This document shows positions 10,387 to 29,084 of a stretch of 35,561 nucleotides of DNA, piece by piece. Below the pieces are notes generated by a model that was not told where the DNA came from, did not search any database, and was given only the letters and a program-made list of their open reading frames with translations. The position numbers and the translations under genes are program-made. The stretch's first letter is position 1. Each line of letters opens with the position of its first letter. This DNA comes from Candidatus Kaiserbacteria bacterium RIFOXYD1_FULL_47_14 (GTDB taxonomy: Bacteria; Patescibacteriota; Minisyncoccia; Phycocordibacterales; Phycocordibacteraceae): the NCBI GenBank assembly GCA_001781915.1, contig MFMU01000006.1:1-35561 (forward strand), read 5' to 3'.

Positions 10387-11355
10387 TTAAACCGTGAAGC
10401 CACTAACCGAATAAAGTTCATCATCAGGCGTTTCTTCGGGCGCAGCAGGCGGAACAGGATCTTCTATAATACTGTTTGTTTCCACTTCATCTATTTGTTT
10501 ATTGGCCTCAATATCGGAGCGTGGTATAAGCGACGCCGCGAGTACTGAGAGATCATCAGGCGAGAAAAAGTCGATGAGAAGACGACCGCCTTCGGCGTTG
10601 GTCTCGATAATAACGCGCGTGCCTAAAGTTTCAGTAAGCGATTTTTCGAGTTCAACCATCTCGGGTGTTTTTCTATGATACTTGCGCACGCGTTCCTGTG
10701 CGATAGATCGCGCGATGCCTTCGGCAGCGCGAACCGAGAGCCGTTTCAGCGTAATTTCTTTAAAAAGGGTCTCGAGTTCTTCTGGTTTATCGCTCAATGC
10801 GAGCAGTGTGCGCGCATGACCTTCACTTATTTCTTTATCGACAACGGAATTTTGTATATGCTCAGGCAATGAAAGGAGGCGAAGCGAGTTAGAGACATAT
10901 TCGCGACTCTTGCCGATCTTCGCTGCGGTCTCGGCATGCGAAATGCCGAAATCTTCAATAAGTTTCTTAAGCGCTTTCGCTCGATCGATAGCGTTGAGAT
11001 CTTCGCGCTGCAAATTTTCAATAATAGCGAGCTCGAGCTTCGTGAGGTTCGTATCGCCTTGACGAATCACGACCGGTACTTGCCTCAGACCAGCAATCTT
11101 CGAAGCACGCAGGCGTCGTTCTCCGGCAATGAGTTCATACAAACTCTCGAGACCTCCTTCCGGTTTCTCGACATCGGTGCGCGTTACAACTAGCGGTTGC
11201 AACACGCCATACTGACGAATACTCTCCGCAAGCGAAGAGAGACCCTCTTCGCTGAAGTTTCGGCGTGGCTGGTAGGGATTCGGTTGTATCCGCTCGACAT
11301 CAATCCAAAAAACCGAATCATATTTTGTCGGCACATACCCAGTGTCCTCATGCAT
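10387..11355 (-). CDS. parB: ParB-family chromosome partitioning protein
   Basis: Binds parS sites and spreads as a CTP-dependent clamp. From MHEDTGYVPTKYDS (322 residues): N-terminal ParB/Srx domain (IQPNPYQPRRNFSEEGLSSL, the CTP-binding IAGERRLRASKIAGL), helix-turn-helix (SHAETAAKIGKSREYVSNSLRLL) and a C-terminal part of alternating acidic and hydrophobic sequence (TRVIIETNAEGGRLLIDFFS, which resembles the dimer domain). The ORF track starts 17 residues earlier at 11406, but a TGG-TAAAAT box 7 nt before 11355 argues for the shorter form. No parA partner is in the window, and I did not spot a parS site. Confidence 0.92.
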   Translation of the reverse strand: MHEDTGYVPTKYDSVFWIDVERIQPNPYQPRRNFSEEGLSSLAESIRQYGVLQPLVVTRTDVEKPEGGLESLYELIAGERRLRASKIAGLRQVPVVIRQGDTNLTKLELAIIENLQREDLNAIDRAKALKKLIEDFGISHAETAAKIGKSREYVSNSLRLLSLPEHIQNSVVDKEISEGHARTLLALSDKPEELETLFKEITLKRLSVRAAEGIARSIAQERVRKYHRKTPEMVELEKSLTETLGTRVIIETNAEGGRLLIDFFSPDDLSVLAASLIPRSDIEANKQIDEVETNSIIEDPVPPAAPEETPDDELYSVSGFTV

Positions 11356-11362
11356 GTGAGTT

Positions 11363-11392
11363 ATTTTACCATGATGAAAATATAGATGTGAA
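11363..11392 (-). promoter_or_regulatory. parB promoter (leaderless)
   Basis: Minus strand: TTCACA (11387-11392), 18-bp spacer, TGG-extended TAAAAT (11363-11368), then 7 nt to the ATG at 11355. Confidence 0.55.
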
Positions 11393-11410
11393 GTGGTATT
11401 GTGCACTTAA

Positions 11411-11448
11411 GCCCTACTTCGTCCTTCAGCTGACGAACTACGAAGGGC
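11411..11448. repeat. 38-bp palindromic repeat upstream of tRNA-Leu
   Basis: GCCC-TAC-TTCGT-CCTTCAGC / TGACGAACT-ACGAA-GGGC. It is a direct copy of 11531-11568 with outer arms GCCC/GGGC in place of GCAC/GTGC, a paired change. The central CAGCTG is conserved. Lies 3 nt before the tRNA. Confidence 0.8.
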
Positions 11449-11451
11449 GTA

Positions 11452-11533
11452 GCCGGGATGGCGGAATTGGCAGACGCGATGGATTCAAGACCCATTGTCG
11501 AAAGACATGAGAGTTCGATTCTCTCTCCCGGCA
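11452..11533 (+). tRNA. tRNA-Leu (anticodon CAA)
   Basis: Acceptor GCCGGGA pairs with TCCCGGC (11526-11532), discriminator A at 11533. Anticodon loop TTCAAGA gives CAA, decoding UUG. A long variable arm (TGTCGAAAGACA) marks a class II tRNA, and the T-arm GAGAG-TTCGATT-CTCTC is intact. The anticodon stem has one A-C mismatch next to the loop. CCA is not encoded. Each end meets a copy of the same 38-bp palindrome. Confidence 0.95.
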
Positions 11534-11568
11534 CTACTTCGTCCGTCAGCTGACGGACTACGAAGTGC
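11531..11568. repeat. 38-bp palindromic repeat overlapping the tRNA-Leu 3' end
   Basis: GCAC-TAC-TTCGT-CCGTCAGC / TGACGGACT-ACGAA-GTGC. The inner CCGTCAGCTGACGG is a perfect 14-bp palindrome. Its first three bases are the last bases of the tRNA, and it ends just before the miaA reading frame, so the hairpin could act on tRNA 3'-end maturation or on miaA initiation. Confidence 0.8.
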
Positions 11569-11577
11569 ATGCACCCT

Positions 11578-12444
11578 ATGACTAAAATTTTATGCATCGC
11601 GGGGCCGACTGCCTCGGGTAAGTCCGCACGCGCGGTTGGAGAAGCACTCACCAGAAATGGCGAGATAATCTCGGTTGATAGCCGGCAGGTATATCGCGGA
11701 CTCGATATCGGCACAGAAAAAATAACCTGCGAAGAAATGCATGGAGTTCCCCACCATCTTATCGATATTCGCGAGGTGAACGAGATTTATTCTGCCGGCG
11801 ACTTCGTCTCTGACGCGACGCACCTCATTGAAGAAATTTCAACGCGCGGAAAACTGCCGATTCTCGTCGGCGGAACGCATTTTTATTTTGATGCACTTCT
11901 GAAAGGTCTTCCGACAGGAGCTGACGCGAATCCGGCACTTCGCGCAGAATTAGAGAAACTCTCGACCGAAGAATTGTATGCGCGTGTCGTGCGAGCAGAT
12001 GCGCGTCGCGCAAGCGAGATTGACCCTCACAATCGCCGCCGACTTATTCGTGCTCTTGAAATTATCAAGTCGCTCGGCTCTGTCCCGCCTCGCAACCTCG
12101 TGGACGCCAGGCGTCCACAGTTGCTGTGGACGCCTGGCGTCCACACAGAATGGATTGTGATTGACCCGCCGAAAGAAGAATTGCGAACGAGAATTGATGC
12201 GCGCTTAAGAAAAGCTCTCGAACGCGGACTTATAGAAGAAGTCCACAAAGTACACGAAAAAGTTGGCGATGCACGACTCAACGAACTCGGCCTTGAATAT
12301 CGCGTCATCGGCGAATTTCTGAACTTGGAAGCGAAACACCCAAGTGGGTGTTTCGCTTCCAAGTTGCTCCCTGCGCTCTCAGCGAAACTCTGGCAATATG
12401 CACGGCACCAAAAATCGTGGCTGCGGAAATTAGGGGAAAGATGA
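11578..12444 (+). CDS. miaA: tRNA dimethylallyltransferase (MiaA)
   Basis: Adds a dimethylallyl group to A37 of tRNAs reading UNN codons. MTKILCIAGPTASGKSARAV begins with the P-loop; then ISVDSRQVYRGLDIGTEK, PHHLIDI and VGGTHFYFDALLKGL, typical of MiaA. 288 residues. An upstream in-frame ATG at 11569 sits at the edge of a palindrome; 11578 places the P-loop at the usual distance. Two palindromes are translated in frame: 12100-12144 is exactly 15 codons (VDARRPQLLWTPGVH), inserted before TEWIVIDPPKEEL, and 12322-12365 encodes the LEAKHPSGCFASK stretch in the C-terminal part. The tRNA-Leu(CAA) just upstream reads a UNN codon and so could be a MiaA substrate. Confidence 0.95.
   Translation: MTKILCIAGPTASGKSARAVGEALTRNGEIISVDSRQVYRGLDIGTEKITCEEMHGVPHHLIDIREVNEIYSAGDFVSDATHLIEEISTRGKLPILVGGTHFYFDALLKGLPTGADANPALRAELEKLSTEELYARVVRADARRASEIDPHNRRRLIRALEIIKSLGSVPPRNLVDARRPQLLWTPGVHTEWIVIDPPKEELRTRIDARLRKALERGLIEEVHKVHEKVGDARLNELGLEYRVIGEFLNLEAKHPSGCFASKLLPALSAKLWQYARHQKSWLRKLGER
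12100..12144. repeat. 45-bp perfect nested palindrome in miaA (21-TTG-21)
   Basis: Two perfect 21-nt arms around TTG. The arm GTGGACGCCAGGCGTCCAC is itself palindromic apart from its centre. Exactly 15 codons, so the reading frame is kept. Same class as 25458-25502, 16526-16572, 20654-20698 and 29038-29084. Confidence 0.95.
12322..12365. repeat. 44-bp perfect palindrome in miaA (21-AG-21)
   Basis: AACTTGGAAGCGAAACACCC pairs fully with GGGTGTTTCGCTTCCAAGTT; the stem reaches 21 bp with a 2-nt centre. Translated in frame. Its GACACCCAAG-like inner arm resembles the intergenic element at 29038-29084 (ACACCCAAG). Confidence 0.9.
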
Positions 12445-13521: not shown

Positions 13522-13592
13522 GGGCCTATAGTTTAGCGGTAAAACAGTGGTCTCCAAAACCACCGTCCCAGGTTCGAGTCCTGGTGGGCCCG
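13522..13592 (+). tRNA. tRNA-Trp (anticodon CCA)
   Basis: Acceptor GGGCCTA pairs with TGGGCCC (13585-13591, one G-T), discriminator G at 13592. Anticodon stem GTGGT/ACCAC with loop CTCCAAA gives CCA. T-arm CCAGG-TTCGAGT-CCTGG. The genome continues with CA, so CCA is not fully encoded. Six bases separate it from the convergent ATPase gene. Confidence 0.96.
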
Positions 13593-13593
13593 C

Positions 13594-16525: not shown

Positions 16526-16572
16526 CGTGGAAGTCAGACATCCACAGCAACTGTGGATGTCTGACTTCCACG
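16526..16572. repeat. 47-bp perfect palindrome forming the clpB 3' end (22-CAA-22)
   Basis: Perfect 22-nt arms (CGTGGAAGTCAGACATCCAC core) around CAA. Read on the minus strand it supplies the last 12 clpB residues ([12 protein letters not shown]) and the stop codon. Differs from the GH130 copy at three arm positions, all compensated in the opposite arm. Confidence 0.95.
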
Positions 16573-20031: not shown

Positions 20032-21136
20032 TAAACTGTATTGCTCGCACCAGTGCCTTAGTAAAGCGTACTAATCCACTGGAATGAGTACGCGGACCCC
20101 ACGAAATACGCAGAGTTGAACGAGCGCGTTCATAATCGCCAGTAAGAGCAAAAACCGCTCGCGAGCCCTCTTCGGAGTCCGTCTCACAAGCGCTCCTAGT
20201 CGAGACAGCAAAACCTGCTTCGTCGAGAAGCGCCACCAGATAATCAGTGTCACGGCCTGGAAATGAGAGATTGATGATGTTTGGCGCTTGAACACGGCCT
20301 CCATTTATATATACCTTGGGAATTGTTTCTAAAATAATCTTCACTATTTTCGTTCTATCTTTTTCAGCAGACATACAGAATTTCTCGCGACCAAGCGCGG
20401 CGGCGCGAAGCGCCGCCGCGAATGCTTTCGCAAGTTCAGGTGATTCGCTTCCCGGCCGCAATCCTCTTTCTTGTCCGCCGCCGCGATACAACGGTTCAAG
20501 GGGAATAGTTCGATGTGCAATAAGAGCGCCCATACCACGCCCAACACTCACTTTGGAACTATCAAACGAGAGCATATCCGCGCCGAAATGTGCGCGAGTT
20601 ATTTTTTCTGTAAGCGGAGCTTGACTGGCATCGATATGCAACAAAGCTCTGTTGTTGAAGTTCGACTTCAACAGTTGCTGTTGAAGTCGAACTTCAACTA
20701 ATATCTGTGCCACCTCTCTCGTATTCCAAATAATCCCCGTCTCTCCGCAAACGGCATCCATAGTAACTAGTTTTGTCTCTGGTCGCAGCATTTTCTTTAG
20801 TTTTTCACAATCAACACGCCCTTCTTTAATCGGAAGTTCTTCAACTTTAATTCCTCGTTCGCTTAGTAATTTTATGTTCTCAATGATTGACGCATGCGCG
20901 CTTGGCAAATAGAAAATGTGATCTCCTTTTTTGGTTACACCAATAATCGCGAGCGCATTCGCTTCAGTCGCACCGCTGGTGAAGATAATATCGTCCGATT
21001 GCACTTCAACGAGACGCGCAATTTCTCTTCTCGCTTCTTCAAGCTGTTCTCGGGATTTTCGACCTTCCGTGTGCGGAGACGAAGGATTCCCACTCATACC
21101 CGCCGCAAAATCAAAATTGACTCGTCTCGTGAACAT
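20009..21136 (-). CDS. iscS: Cysteine desulfurase (NifS/IscS-like) with shortened N-terminus
   Basis: PLP enzyme that takes sulfur from cysteine for tRNA thiolation or Fe-S clusters. 375 residues. Visible: NPSSPHTEGRKSREQLEEAR, FTSGATEANALAI, HIDASQAP, the PLP-lysine region SFDSSKVSVGRGMGALIAH and the catalytic Cys in STRSACETDSEEGSRAV. The N-terminus is odd: VNFDFAAG joins straight to MSGNPSSPH, whereas relatives have about 20 more residues between YLDNAATT and GNPSS. The frame upstream reaches a stop with no better start. Two palindromes are in frame: 20654-20698 (VEVRLQQQLLKSNFN, exactly 15 codons) and 20396-20420 (Ala-rich helix). Confidence 0.88.
   Translation of the reverse strand: MFTRRVNFDFAAGMSGNPSSPHTEGRKSREQLEEARREIARLVEVQSDDIIFTSGATEANALAIIGVTKKGDHIFYLPSAHASIIENIKLLSERGIKVEELPIKEGRVDCEKLKKMLRPETKLVTMDAVCGETGIIWNTREVAQILVEVRLQQQLLKSNFNNRALLHIDASQAPLTEKITRAHFGADMLSFDSSKVSVGRGMGALIAHRTIPLEPLYRGGGQERGLRPGSESPELAKAFAAALRAAALGREKFCMSAEKDRTKIVKIILETIPKVYINGGRVQAPNIINLSFPGRDTDYLVALLDEAGFAVSTRSACETDSEEGSRAVFALTGDYERARSTLRISWGPRTHSSGLVRFTKALVRAIQFIDRNGQG
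20396..20420. repeat. 25-bp GC-rich hairpin (11-GAA-11) in iscS
   Basis: CGCGGCGGCGC-GAA-GCGCCGCCGCG. Same geometry and loop as 2496-2520. Encodes part of AFAAALRAAALGRE, a helix where alanine substitutions would be tolerated. Confidence 0.7.
20654..20698. repeat. 45-bp perfect nested palindrome in iscS (21-TTG-21)
   Basis: Arms GTTGAAGTTCGACTTCAAC plus AG around TTG, all 21 pairs intact. Same length, loop and CAGTTGCTG core as the miaA copy, but most of the arm sequence differs. In frame as 15 codons before NNRALLHIDASQ. Confidence 0.95.
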
Positions 21137-24589: not shown

Positions 24590-26536
24590 ATGTTTGTCAT
24601 TCGCCGAGATCTTGACAACCCGATTCTCTCGCCTCGCCGCGAACATCCGTGGGAGGCACTTGCTGTATTTAATCCGTCTGTTATTCGCGAGAAGAACGGT
24701 TGGAAGATGTATTATCGAGCACTCTCAAATCCATCGGCACTGGTCTCTTCGTACGCAGGACAATCAACCATTGGCGAAGCATTTTCCGAAGACGGCACTC
24801 ACTTTAATGTACGACGACAAATACTTGTTCCGGAACAATCATGGGAATCATTCGGTTGCGAAGATCCGAGAGTTACTATCTTTGAAGGCGTTTCGTACCT
24901 CTCCTACACAGCACTCGGCGGATATCCCTTTTCAAAAGATACGATAAAAGTCGGTATCGCCGTCGCACGAGATGGAAAAAATTTTACTGAACGGCATCTC
25001 GTCACGCCTTTTAATGCAAAAGCATTCGCTCTATTCCCCGAACGCATCGATGGCAAAGTTGCAGCACTTTTGACTATTCATACTGACGAACCACCTGCCG
25101 AAATATGTTTGGCATATGCCGACCATATCAATGACTTCTGGTCACCAGATTTCTGGAACGAGTGGTACACAAGTTGGCAATCACACAAACTCTCATTCAA
25201 ACGCAATAACAACGACCATATTGAAGTTGGGAGCGTTCCGATACTCACCAAGGATGGTTGGCTCATCTTCTATTCCTATATAGAAAATTATTTCGGTGGC
25301 AGCGAACGGGTCTTTTCGGTTGAAGCGGCACTTCTCGATCGCGACGATCCGTCAAAAATCATCAATCGCACTGAATCAATTTTCGTCCCTGAAGAAATCT
25401 ATGAACTGTATGGTCTCGTACCTAATATAGTTTTCCCCACCAGCGCAACCATTCTTCGTGGAAGCCAGGCGTCCACAGCAACTGTGGACGCCTGGCTTCC
25501 ACAGCAAGACATGCTTGAAATATGGTATGGAGCAGCGGACACCGTTTGCGCAAAAGCAAGTGTGAAATTAAACGATTTGTTGCGGGACTTGGATCCAGAA
25601 AAACCAGCGCGCACCTTCACGCGTTCCGAAAAAAATCCAATTCTTGCTCCTCATGGCGATGGATTCGAGAGCCACGAGGTGCTGAATGCTGCCGCGATTG
25701 ATATCGACGGCTCGGTCTATATTCTCTATCGCGCGATGGATGCCGCGAATACTTCTACCATCGGACTCGCGATTTCTCATGACGGCATCACTATTAATGA
25801 GCGCCTGCCAGAACCAATTTATGCGCCGCGCGCCGATTTCGAAATGAAGAAAGGCAGCGCCACTGGCAATTCCGGCTGCGAGGATCCGCGCATCGTGTGC
25901 ATTGGCGACACACTTCATATGACCTACACTGCCTATGATGGAGTGCATGTGCCGGCAGGAGCTATCTCCTCTATCAGCGTTGAGGACTTTCTTGCACGAC
26001 GATGGGAAAAGTGGAGCGTACCTTTCATCCTCACTCCCGAGGGCGTTGATGATAAAGACCTCGCTCTCTTGCCTGAAAAAATCGGCGAAAATTATCTACT
26101 CTATCATCGTATCAATAACCAGATTTGTGCTGATCTCCTTCCTGATCTCTCCTCGGGTAAATGCGCGAGCCGTTGTATCGAAGTTATCGCGCCGCGACTT
26201 GGTATGTGGGATGGACTGAAGGTCGGCAGTACGGCACCGCCGATTAAAGTCGGCAATAATTGGCTGATGATTTACCATGGCGTCTCGCGCCACGGAACCT
26301 ATCGCCTTGGCGCCGTACTCTTGGATGCTTCAGGTACTTCTGTCCTTGCTCGTACTGCTGACCCGATCTTCGAACCAATAGAAAAATACGAGCACGAGGG
26401 AGCAGTCGCGAATGTTGTCTTTTCCTGCGGTACAGTTGTCCGCGGCGACACTATCTTTCTCTACTACGGCGCCGCCGATAAAGTGCTTGGCGTCGCGACC
26501 GCTTCGCTAGCGCACATTGTTGATGCACTGACATGA
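24590..26536 (+). CDS. Tandem GH130 protein (two propeller domains)
   Basis: 648 residues made of two GH130 domains. Domain A (about 1-335): NPILSPRREHPWEALAVFNP, GCEDPRVTIF (89), LFPERIDGKVAAL; its YH-type site reads IFYSYIENYF, so the His is lost. Domain B (about 340-648): NPILAPHGDGFESHEVLNAA, GCEDPRIVCI (429), LPEKIGENYLLYHRI, WLMIYHGVSRHGTY, complete. I infer domain B is active and domain A degenerate or binding-only. A 45-bp palindrome (25458-25502) is translated as GSQASTATVDAWLPQ in domain A. The stop overlaps the HAD start by 4 bp (ATGA). Confidence 0.85.
   Translation: MFVIRRDLDNPILSPRREHPWEALAVFNPSVIREKNGWKMYYRALSNPSALVSSYAGQSTIGEAFSEDGTHFNVRRQILVPEQSWESFGCEDPRVTIFEGVSYLSYTALGGYPFSKDTIKVGIAVARDGKNFTERHLVTPFNAKAFALFPERIDGKVAALLTIHTDEPPAEICLAYADHINDFWSPDFWNEWYTSWQSHKLSFKRNNNDHIEVGSVPILTKDGWLIFYSYIENYFGGSERVFSVEAALLDRDDPSKIINRTESIFVPEEIYELYGLVPNIVFPTSATILRGSQASTATVDAWLPQQDMLEIWYGAADTVCAKASVKLNDLLRDLDPEKPARTFTRSEKNPILAPHGDGFESHEVLNAAAIDIDGSVYILYRAMDAANTSTIGLAISHDGITINERLPEPIYAPRADFEMKKGSATGNSGCEDPRIVCIGDTLHMTYTAYDGVHVPAGAISSISVEDFLARRWEKWSVPFILTPEGVDDKDLALLPEKIGENYLLYHRINNQICADLLPDLSSGKCASRCIEVIAPRLGMWDGLKVGSTAPPIKVGNNWLMIYHGVSRHGTYRLGAVLLDASGTSVLARTADPIFEPIEKYEHEGAVANVVFSCGTVVRGDTIFLYYGAADKVLGVATASLAHIVDALT
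25458..25502. repeat. 45-bp perfect nested palindrome in tandem GH130 (21-CAA-21)
   Basis: Arms GTGGAAGCCAGGCGTCCAC plus AG around CAA, all 21 pairs intact. Differs from the miaA copy at one arm position (C to A) with the matching G to T in the other arm. Read in the same frame as the clpB copy (RGSQxST). Confidence 0.95.
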
Positions 26537-29037: not shown

Positions 29038-29084
29038 ACTTGTAGGTGAGACACCCAAGTTGCTTGGGTGTCTCACCTACAAGT
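29038..29084. repeat. 47-bp perfect palindrome between helicase and 4-TM gene (22-TTG-22)
   Basis: ACTTGTAGGTGAGACACCCA plus AG around TTG with all 22 pairs intact. Non-coding copy of the 45/47-bp class. It starts 5 bp after the 4-TM stop codon and may also work as a transcript 3' end, though no U-tract follows. Confidence 0.9.

Follow-up and report, generated by a model that had tools for sequence, protein, structure and literature searches.

Rickettsia palindromic elements (RPEs), about 105–146 bp in length (PMC2229807), are found in-frame in conserved protein genes as well as in tmRNA and M1 RNA, and their occurrence is sporadic among close species (PMC2229807, PMC4316617). The passages of these two papers on which we draw do not describe a concentration at exact tRNA ends. 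GTAG-tagged REPs, the palindromes of the RAYT system, measure 20–40 bp and carry a GTAG tag beside a stem that varies in sequence and length (PMC3733652, PMC2817692). CGTC-tagged REPs, for which no dedicated transposase is known, are not linked to tRNA ends in the parts of PMC3733652 considered here. In sponge mitochondria, repetitive hairpin-forming elements are located on the 5′ side of many tRNA genes and also within rRNA genes, according to excerpts of PMC2800124. Among open-access papers, we found none on a Patescibacteria palindrome with a tRNA link and no match for base-precise targeting of tRNA ends by palindromes.

Here we describe two palindromic repeats at a tRNA-Leu(CAA) gene in the window, by which we mean the whole stretch of 35,561 nucleotides analysed from a Candidatus Kaiserbacteria genome. 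The two repeats belong to a wider family with the frame CTACTTCG–(variable stem)–CTNCGAAG. Each is probably (with a probability of roughly 0.68) a copy of a small mobile palindrome that is non-autonomous and REP/RPE-like, with one copy inserted exactly at either end of an older tRNA-Leu gene.

Results

Two palindromes at the ends of tRNA-Leu(CAA)

The locus comprises the following features.

10387–11406, − strand: parB-like gene, the divergent upstream neighbour, conserved with tRNA-Leu(CAA)
11397–11402, + strand: presumed −10 box TATTGT of the tRNA-Leu promoter, inferred from orthologous loci, with no scan hit
11411–11448, + strand: 5′ palindrome proper, 38 nt, defined by repeat comparison and folding
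11411–11451, + strand: 5′ inserted segment, 41 bp, GCC-CTACTTCG...CGAAG-GGC plus GTA, directly before tRNA position 1
11452–11534, + strand: tRNA-Leu(CAA) (Rfam: 11452–11533, 51 bits), no CCA encoded
11531–11568, + strand: 3′ palindrome, its left arm GCA being the tRNA's own last bases (71–73)
11535–11574, + strand: 3′ inserted segment, 40 bp, TACTTCG...CGAAGTGCAT plus GCAC
11578–12444, + strand: miaA (tRNA dimethylallyltransferase), with matches in 53 of 59 same-genus genomes

A preliminary description of this DNA had noted the repeat pair, and direct comparison confirmed its positions, length, orientation, 120-bp spacing and overlap with the tRNA: the two 38-nt copies are 89% identical and in direct orientation, and the second covers the last bases of tRNA-Leu(CAA) (GCA/C). 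Their outer arms differ in the paired manner reported there, with GCC/GGC in the 5′ copy and GCA/TGC in the 3′ copy. Both palindromes are imperfect, sharing the frame xx-CTA-CTTCG-stem-CTA-CGAAG-x′x′ with a CTA bulge on each side, and their single-strand folds are better than those of shuffled sequences (z about −2.5 to −3.8). In the window, the seed word CTACTTCGTC occurs nine times when one mismatch is allowed, versus 2.0 expected; in Rfam, the repeat matches no family at gathering score. The GCC that starts the 5′ insert recurs at 11452–11454, placing GCC on both sides of it, while the 3′ insert is bounded by GCAC direct repeats (11531–11534 and 11571–11574). These border repeats are short and not constant, and would at best be candidates for a target duplication.

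tRNA-Leu(CAA) is the sole tRNA with a CAA anticodon among the 42 tRNAs found in the genome. The conserved start of miaA, ATGACTAAAATT, lies 9 nt past the 3′ palindrome and was assigned by comparison with L147 and L120; in some relatives, the miaA ATG follows the tRNA end by 2–3 nt, with no leader of its own. The block TGGTAYTGTGCA recurs 8–10 nt upstream of the tRNA in several relatives (for example, L135, L140 and L143). Together with tRNA-Trp, the tRNA-Leu(CAA) and miaA genes form a close cluster (window positions 11452–12444 and 13522–13593; L120, L146 and L147), in which both tRNAs are expected MiaA substrates.

No third copy of the 38-nt repeat was found in the 628-kb source genome with up to three mismatches allowed. 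Four other tRNAs of this genome have a degenerate relative of the frame, at the 5′ end in tRNA-Met and tRNA-Leu(TAG), and at the 3′ end in tRNA-Ala(GGC) and tRNA-Ala(TGC). The search of other tRNA genes for flanking copies, proposed in the preliminary description, yielded 5 tRNAs out of 42 with the frame, tRNA-Leu(CAA) alone having it on both sides. The strict family pattern has four matches in this genome, all at tRNA ends. Elsewhere in the same genome, a group II intron D1–D4 domain match lies between 16S rRNA and tRNA-Ile (L149:429–507).

Insertion beside an old tRNA gene

The parB/tRNA-Leu(CAA) neighbourhood, with miaA nearby, is old and was found in relatives that lack the palindromes; most orthologous tRNA-Leu(CAA) genes are palindrome-free on both sides (22 same-genus loci). 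Empty sites are observed directly, the 5′ site of L140 reading GTGCACTCTAA/GCCGGG and the 3′ sites reading GGCAC/TATATG in L147 and GCAC/AGTATG in L146. The presence of the same locus without palindromes in relatives identifies the palindromes as insertions next to an old tRNA. The tRNA as cargo brought in between two repeats was ruled out, since the parB/tRNA-Leu/miaA neighbourhood is old and occurs repeat-free. The same 5′ site is occupied in genome G057 by an element whose inner stem is different; this element is identical to the one at tRNA-Met of the source genome. The loss of the tRNA by recombination between the copies, raised in the preliminary description, was not observed in any instance. 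A second piece resembling a tRNA 3′ end (for example, gttcgcgcgggttcgcgctcccccggcac) lies downstream of tRNA-Leu(CAA) in L121, L122 and L127, hinting at older insertions there.

A palindrome family across the genus

A near-exact motif of the repeat was absent from 98 relatives. For the wider family, we scanned 93 same-genus genomes with the pattern CTACTTCGN{3,33}CTNCGAAG, which contains no tRNA part. This gave 46 matches in 17 of the 93 genomes, which are MAGs and may miss genes, at 1–8 copies per genome; since copies linked to tRNAs served to define the pattern, it may miss other subfamilies. A reversed-pattern control gave about 10 scattered matches. Outer arms of at least two pairs are present in 42 of the 46 matches (hereafter referred to as the structured copies), and inner stems of at least three pairs in 20 of the 46, compared with 1.5 on average, and at most 6, in shuffles. 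The frame reads CTACTTCG–(freely changing stem)–CT(A/T)CGAAG, with an outer arm formed by GCC/GGC or by the tRNA's CA paired with TG. At our locus the core measures 32 nt, or 38 nt with arms; across the genus, cores span about 21–48 nt and elements about 25–50 bp.

Of the 42 structured copies, 18 sit precisely at the end of a tRNA, 11 of them on the 3′ side and 7 on the 5′ side, and all 18 are in the sense orientation of the tRNA. A generous random expectation for this location is 0.12 of 42, uncorrected for shared ancestry; the tRNA-Phe copies, orthologous in three genomes, are not independent, and counting them once changes nothing of substance. The register is exact at both ends. Copies at 5′ ends read GCC...GGC plus 3 nt (2 nt in one copy), followed by G1 of the tRNA. 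Copies at 3′ ends begin right after the discriminator base, as tRNA-CA/CTACTTCG...CGAAG/TGC, and the sequence behind them is usually TGC-R-N(N)-GCAC.

Across the order, we searched 397 genomes with the 3′ subtype pattern CACTACTTCGN{3,33}CGAAGTGC and obtained six matches outside the source genome. Four directly follow the 3′ end of a complete tRNA (L277, L279, L281 and L282; Leu-CAG, Arg-TCG, Arg-CCG and Ile-TAT), and the other two (L276 and L280) follow sequence resembling a tRNA 3′ half that was not called as tRNA. A 3′-type element behind such a fragment also occurs in G057 (L128/L261), as if tRNA end and element had been copied together or a tRNA had been interrupted.

The tie between palindrome and tRNA proposed in the preliminary description is thus borne out by the 18 exact tRNA-end copies, but it is not exclusive, as members of the wider frame occur in 23S rRNA, RNase P RNA and protein open frames, which goes part of the way towards the refutation named in that description, repeats with no link to tRNA genes. 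Specifically, copies were found within 23S rRNA (L236 and L255), antisense within RNase P RNA (L247), between 23S and 5S (L246) and near tmRNA (L227). Further copies lie in open frames of protein genes, among them, with translations judged by eye, those for ribosomal protein L22, UvrA, endonuclease III, DusB and a tRNA synthetase. In DusB of G041, the insert is clean and in-frame, and the extra peptide NPTSLGSSEGHG is absent from the homologue in the window. Two tandem 51-bp element copies lie in-frame within one long open reading frame of G017 (L226/L252). In other phyla (Deltaproteobacteria, Verrucomicrobia and others), roughly 45 palindromic copies of a related frame were recovered, none of them at tRNA ends.

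Search for a mobiliser

The source genome (G000) has eleven Y1_Tnp (RAYT-like) matches in 628 kb (L003–L012). Several of these RAYT genes have a perfect palindrome of their own on either side, which differs in sequence from gene to gene and is unlike the family. Perfect palindromes with 2–3-nt loops also occur in the window, at 12100–12144, 12322–12365, 16526–16572, 20654–20698, 25458–25502 and 29038–29084; the first two are in-frame in miaA, and all six are of the same kind as those flanking RAYT genes. At the RAYT loci examined, 10 own and 13 related, the full frame was absent, with one partial look-alike in L267, and no Y1_Tnp match was found in G057, a genome with eight family copies. RAYT was rejected as the resident mobiliser on the basis of these private palindromes, the RAYT loci and G057. 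In other phyla, an HMM built from these RAYTs, which is insensitive to distant RAYTs, detected no RAYT next to the frame. The mobile-element reading is weakened by the low copy number and by the lack of a resident transposase tied to the family.

The palindromes might instead be ordinary GTAG-type REPs mobilised by RAYT, with tRNA ends merely tolerated through a selection filter rather than targeted. Read on the other strand, the core gives GTAG plus palindrome, as in GTAG REPs (PMC3733652, PMC2817692), and both the dispersal of a related frame in other phyla with no tRNA link and the Y1_Tnp matches of the source genome fit this explanation. It is unlikely, however, given that copies at tRNA ends keep register to the single base and are always in sense, that the source-genome RAYTs carry different palindromes and that G057 has elements but no RAYT match. 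The GTAG lies on the strand opposite to the tRNA at both bulges here, and part of it is paired; copies with CTTCGAAG have GAAG instead.

Folding and tRNA processing

A transcript starting at the presumed promoter would have a hairpin on each side of the tRNA, as the preliminary description envisaged. The further suggestion that these hairpins guide 5′ and 3′ processing or shield miaA is unsupported as a general role, as most orthologous tRNA-Leu(CAA) genes have no palindrome, only 5 of 42 own tRNAs have one, and the 3′ hairpin has no terminator signal behind it. We found neither a + strand terminator-like site nor a T run at the 3′ hairpin, and an intrinsic terminator was rejected because no T run follows it.

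A functional role would make the hairpins signals for processing or stabilising the tRNA precursor, acting as local hairpins or as a leader–trailer duplex cut by RNase III, and aiding RNase P/Z or shielding miaA. The sense orientation and exact register of every tRNA copy would agree with this, as would the predicted minimum-energy fold, which pairs the two palindromes around tRNA-Leu at −66.9 kcal/mol versus −60.6 kcal/mol for the three parts apart (z −4.1). In the other double-sided case, tRNA-Gly of G049, the duplex is nevertheless not favoured (−58.8 versus −59.0), and no part in tRNA processing is possible for the copies that lie within protein genes. The frame is sporadic (17 of 93 genomes) and absent from most orthologous tRNA-Leu(CAA) genes and from 37 of 42 own tRNAs. 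With copies sporadic and most orthologous tRNAs hairpin-free, a required processing role is unlikely, and we regard processing signals overall as quite improbable.

Chance or unrelated hairpins beside the tRNA are hardly credible: other kinds of short palindrome are common in the window, but recurrence across genomes and the family statistics (46 matches, with 18 of 42 at tRNA ends versus 0.12 expected) refute this.

Discussion

We favour a small mobile palindrome inserted at both ends of an older tRNA-Leu gene. Such an element would insert in sense orientation at the base of structured RNA genes, with tRNA ends as its main sites, and its mobility may depend on a transposase acting in trans on single-stranded hairpin DNA. 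Maturation of tRNA by RNase P and RNase Z is established. By this route, the 5′ hairpin would leave with the leader through RNase P, and the 3′ hairpin with the trailer through RNase Z or exonucleases, before CCA addition. Insertions at tRNA ends would survive because the hairpins fall outside the mature tRNA. More tentatively, and with considerable doubt, Patescibacteria might possess a class of mobile hairpins that specifically recognises the folded base of tRNA genes (and other structured RNA genes) or of the corresponding transcripts, and inserts one way, right at the points where RNase P and RNase Z cut, to be erased by tRNA maturation. If true, this would let a mobile hairpin persist in essential RNA genes without splicing.

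tRNA genes are frequent targets of integrating elements, which are usually large and carry a recombinase. By contrast, the elements here are gene-less, about 40 bp long and base-exact at both tRNA ends, in strongly reduced genomes. They provide a natural setting in which to test the tolerance of tRNA processing towards a hairpin on either side, as well as the site choice of REP/RPE-like palindromes; for CGTC repeats no dedicated transposase is known (PMC3733652), and none is assignable here. A palindrome family without a dedicated transposase is the feature shared with CGTC-tagged REPs, the tag being different. The sponge hairpins differ in being mitochondrial and, in the excerpts of PMC2800124, are described as intergenic with no fixed register reported.

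GTAG REPs resemble our family in being short palindromes, the 32-nt core (38 nt with arms) falling within 20–40 bp. They are high-copy and mainly extragenic, however, whereas the family has low copy numbers (1–8 per genome) and many copies inside genes; it also has two bulges with an outer clamp, sense orientation at tRNA ends and no RAYT flanked by its members. As in RPEs, insertion occurs in-frame in open reading frames (aligned for DusB of G041, the other frames not one by one) and in structured RNA genes (23S rRNA, RNase P RNA and tRNA ends). In a comparison by description rather than by sequence, the family differs from RPEs in its size of about 25–50 bp, its occurrence in Patescibacteria and its concentration at exact tRNA ends. 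In all, the evidence favours a mobile palindrome of REP/RPE kind placed precisely at tRNA ends, with a tRNA link stronger than the preliminary description could see.
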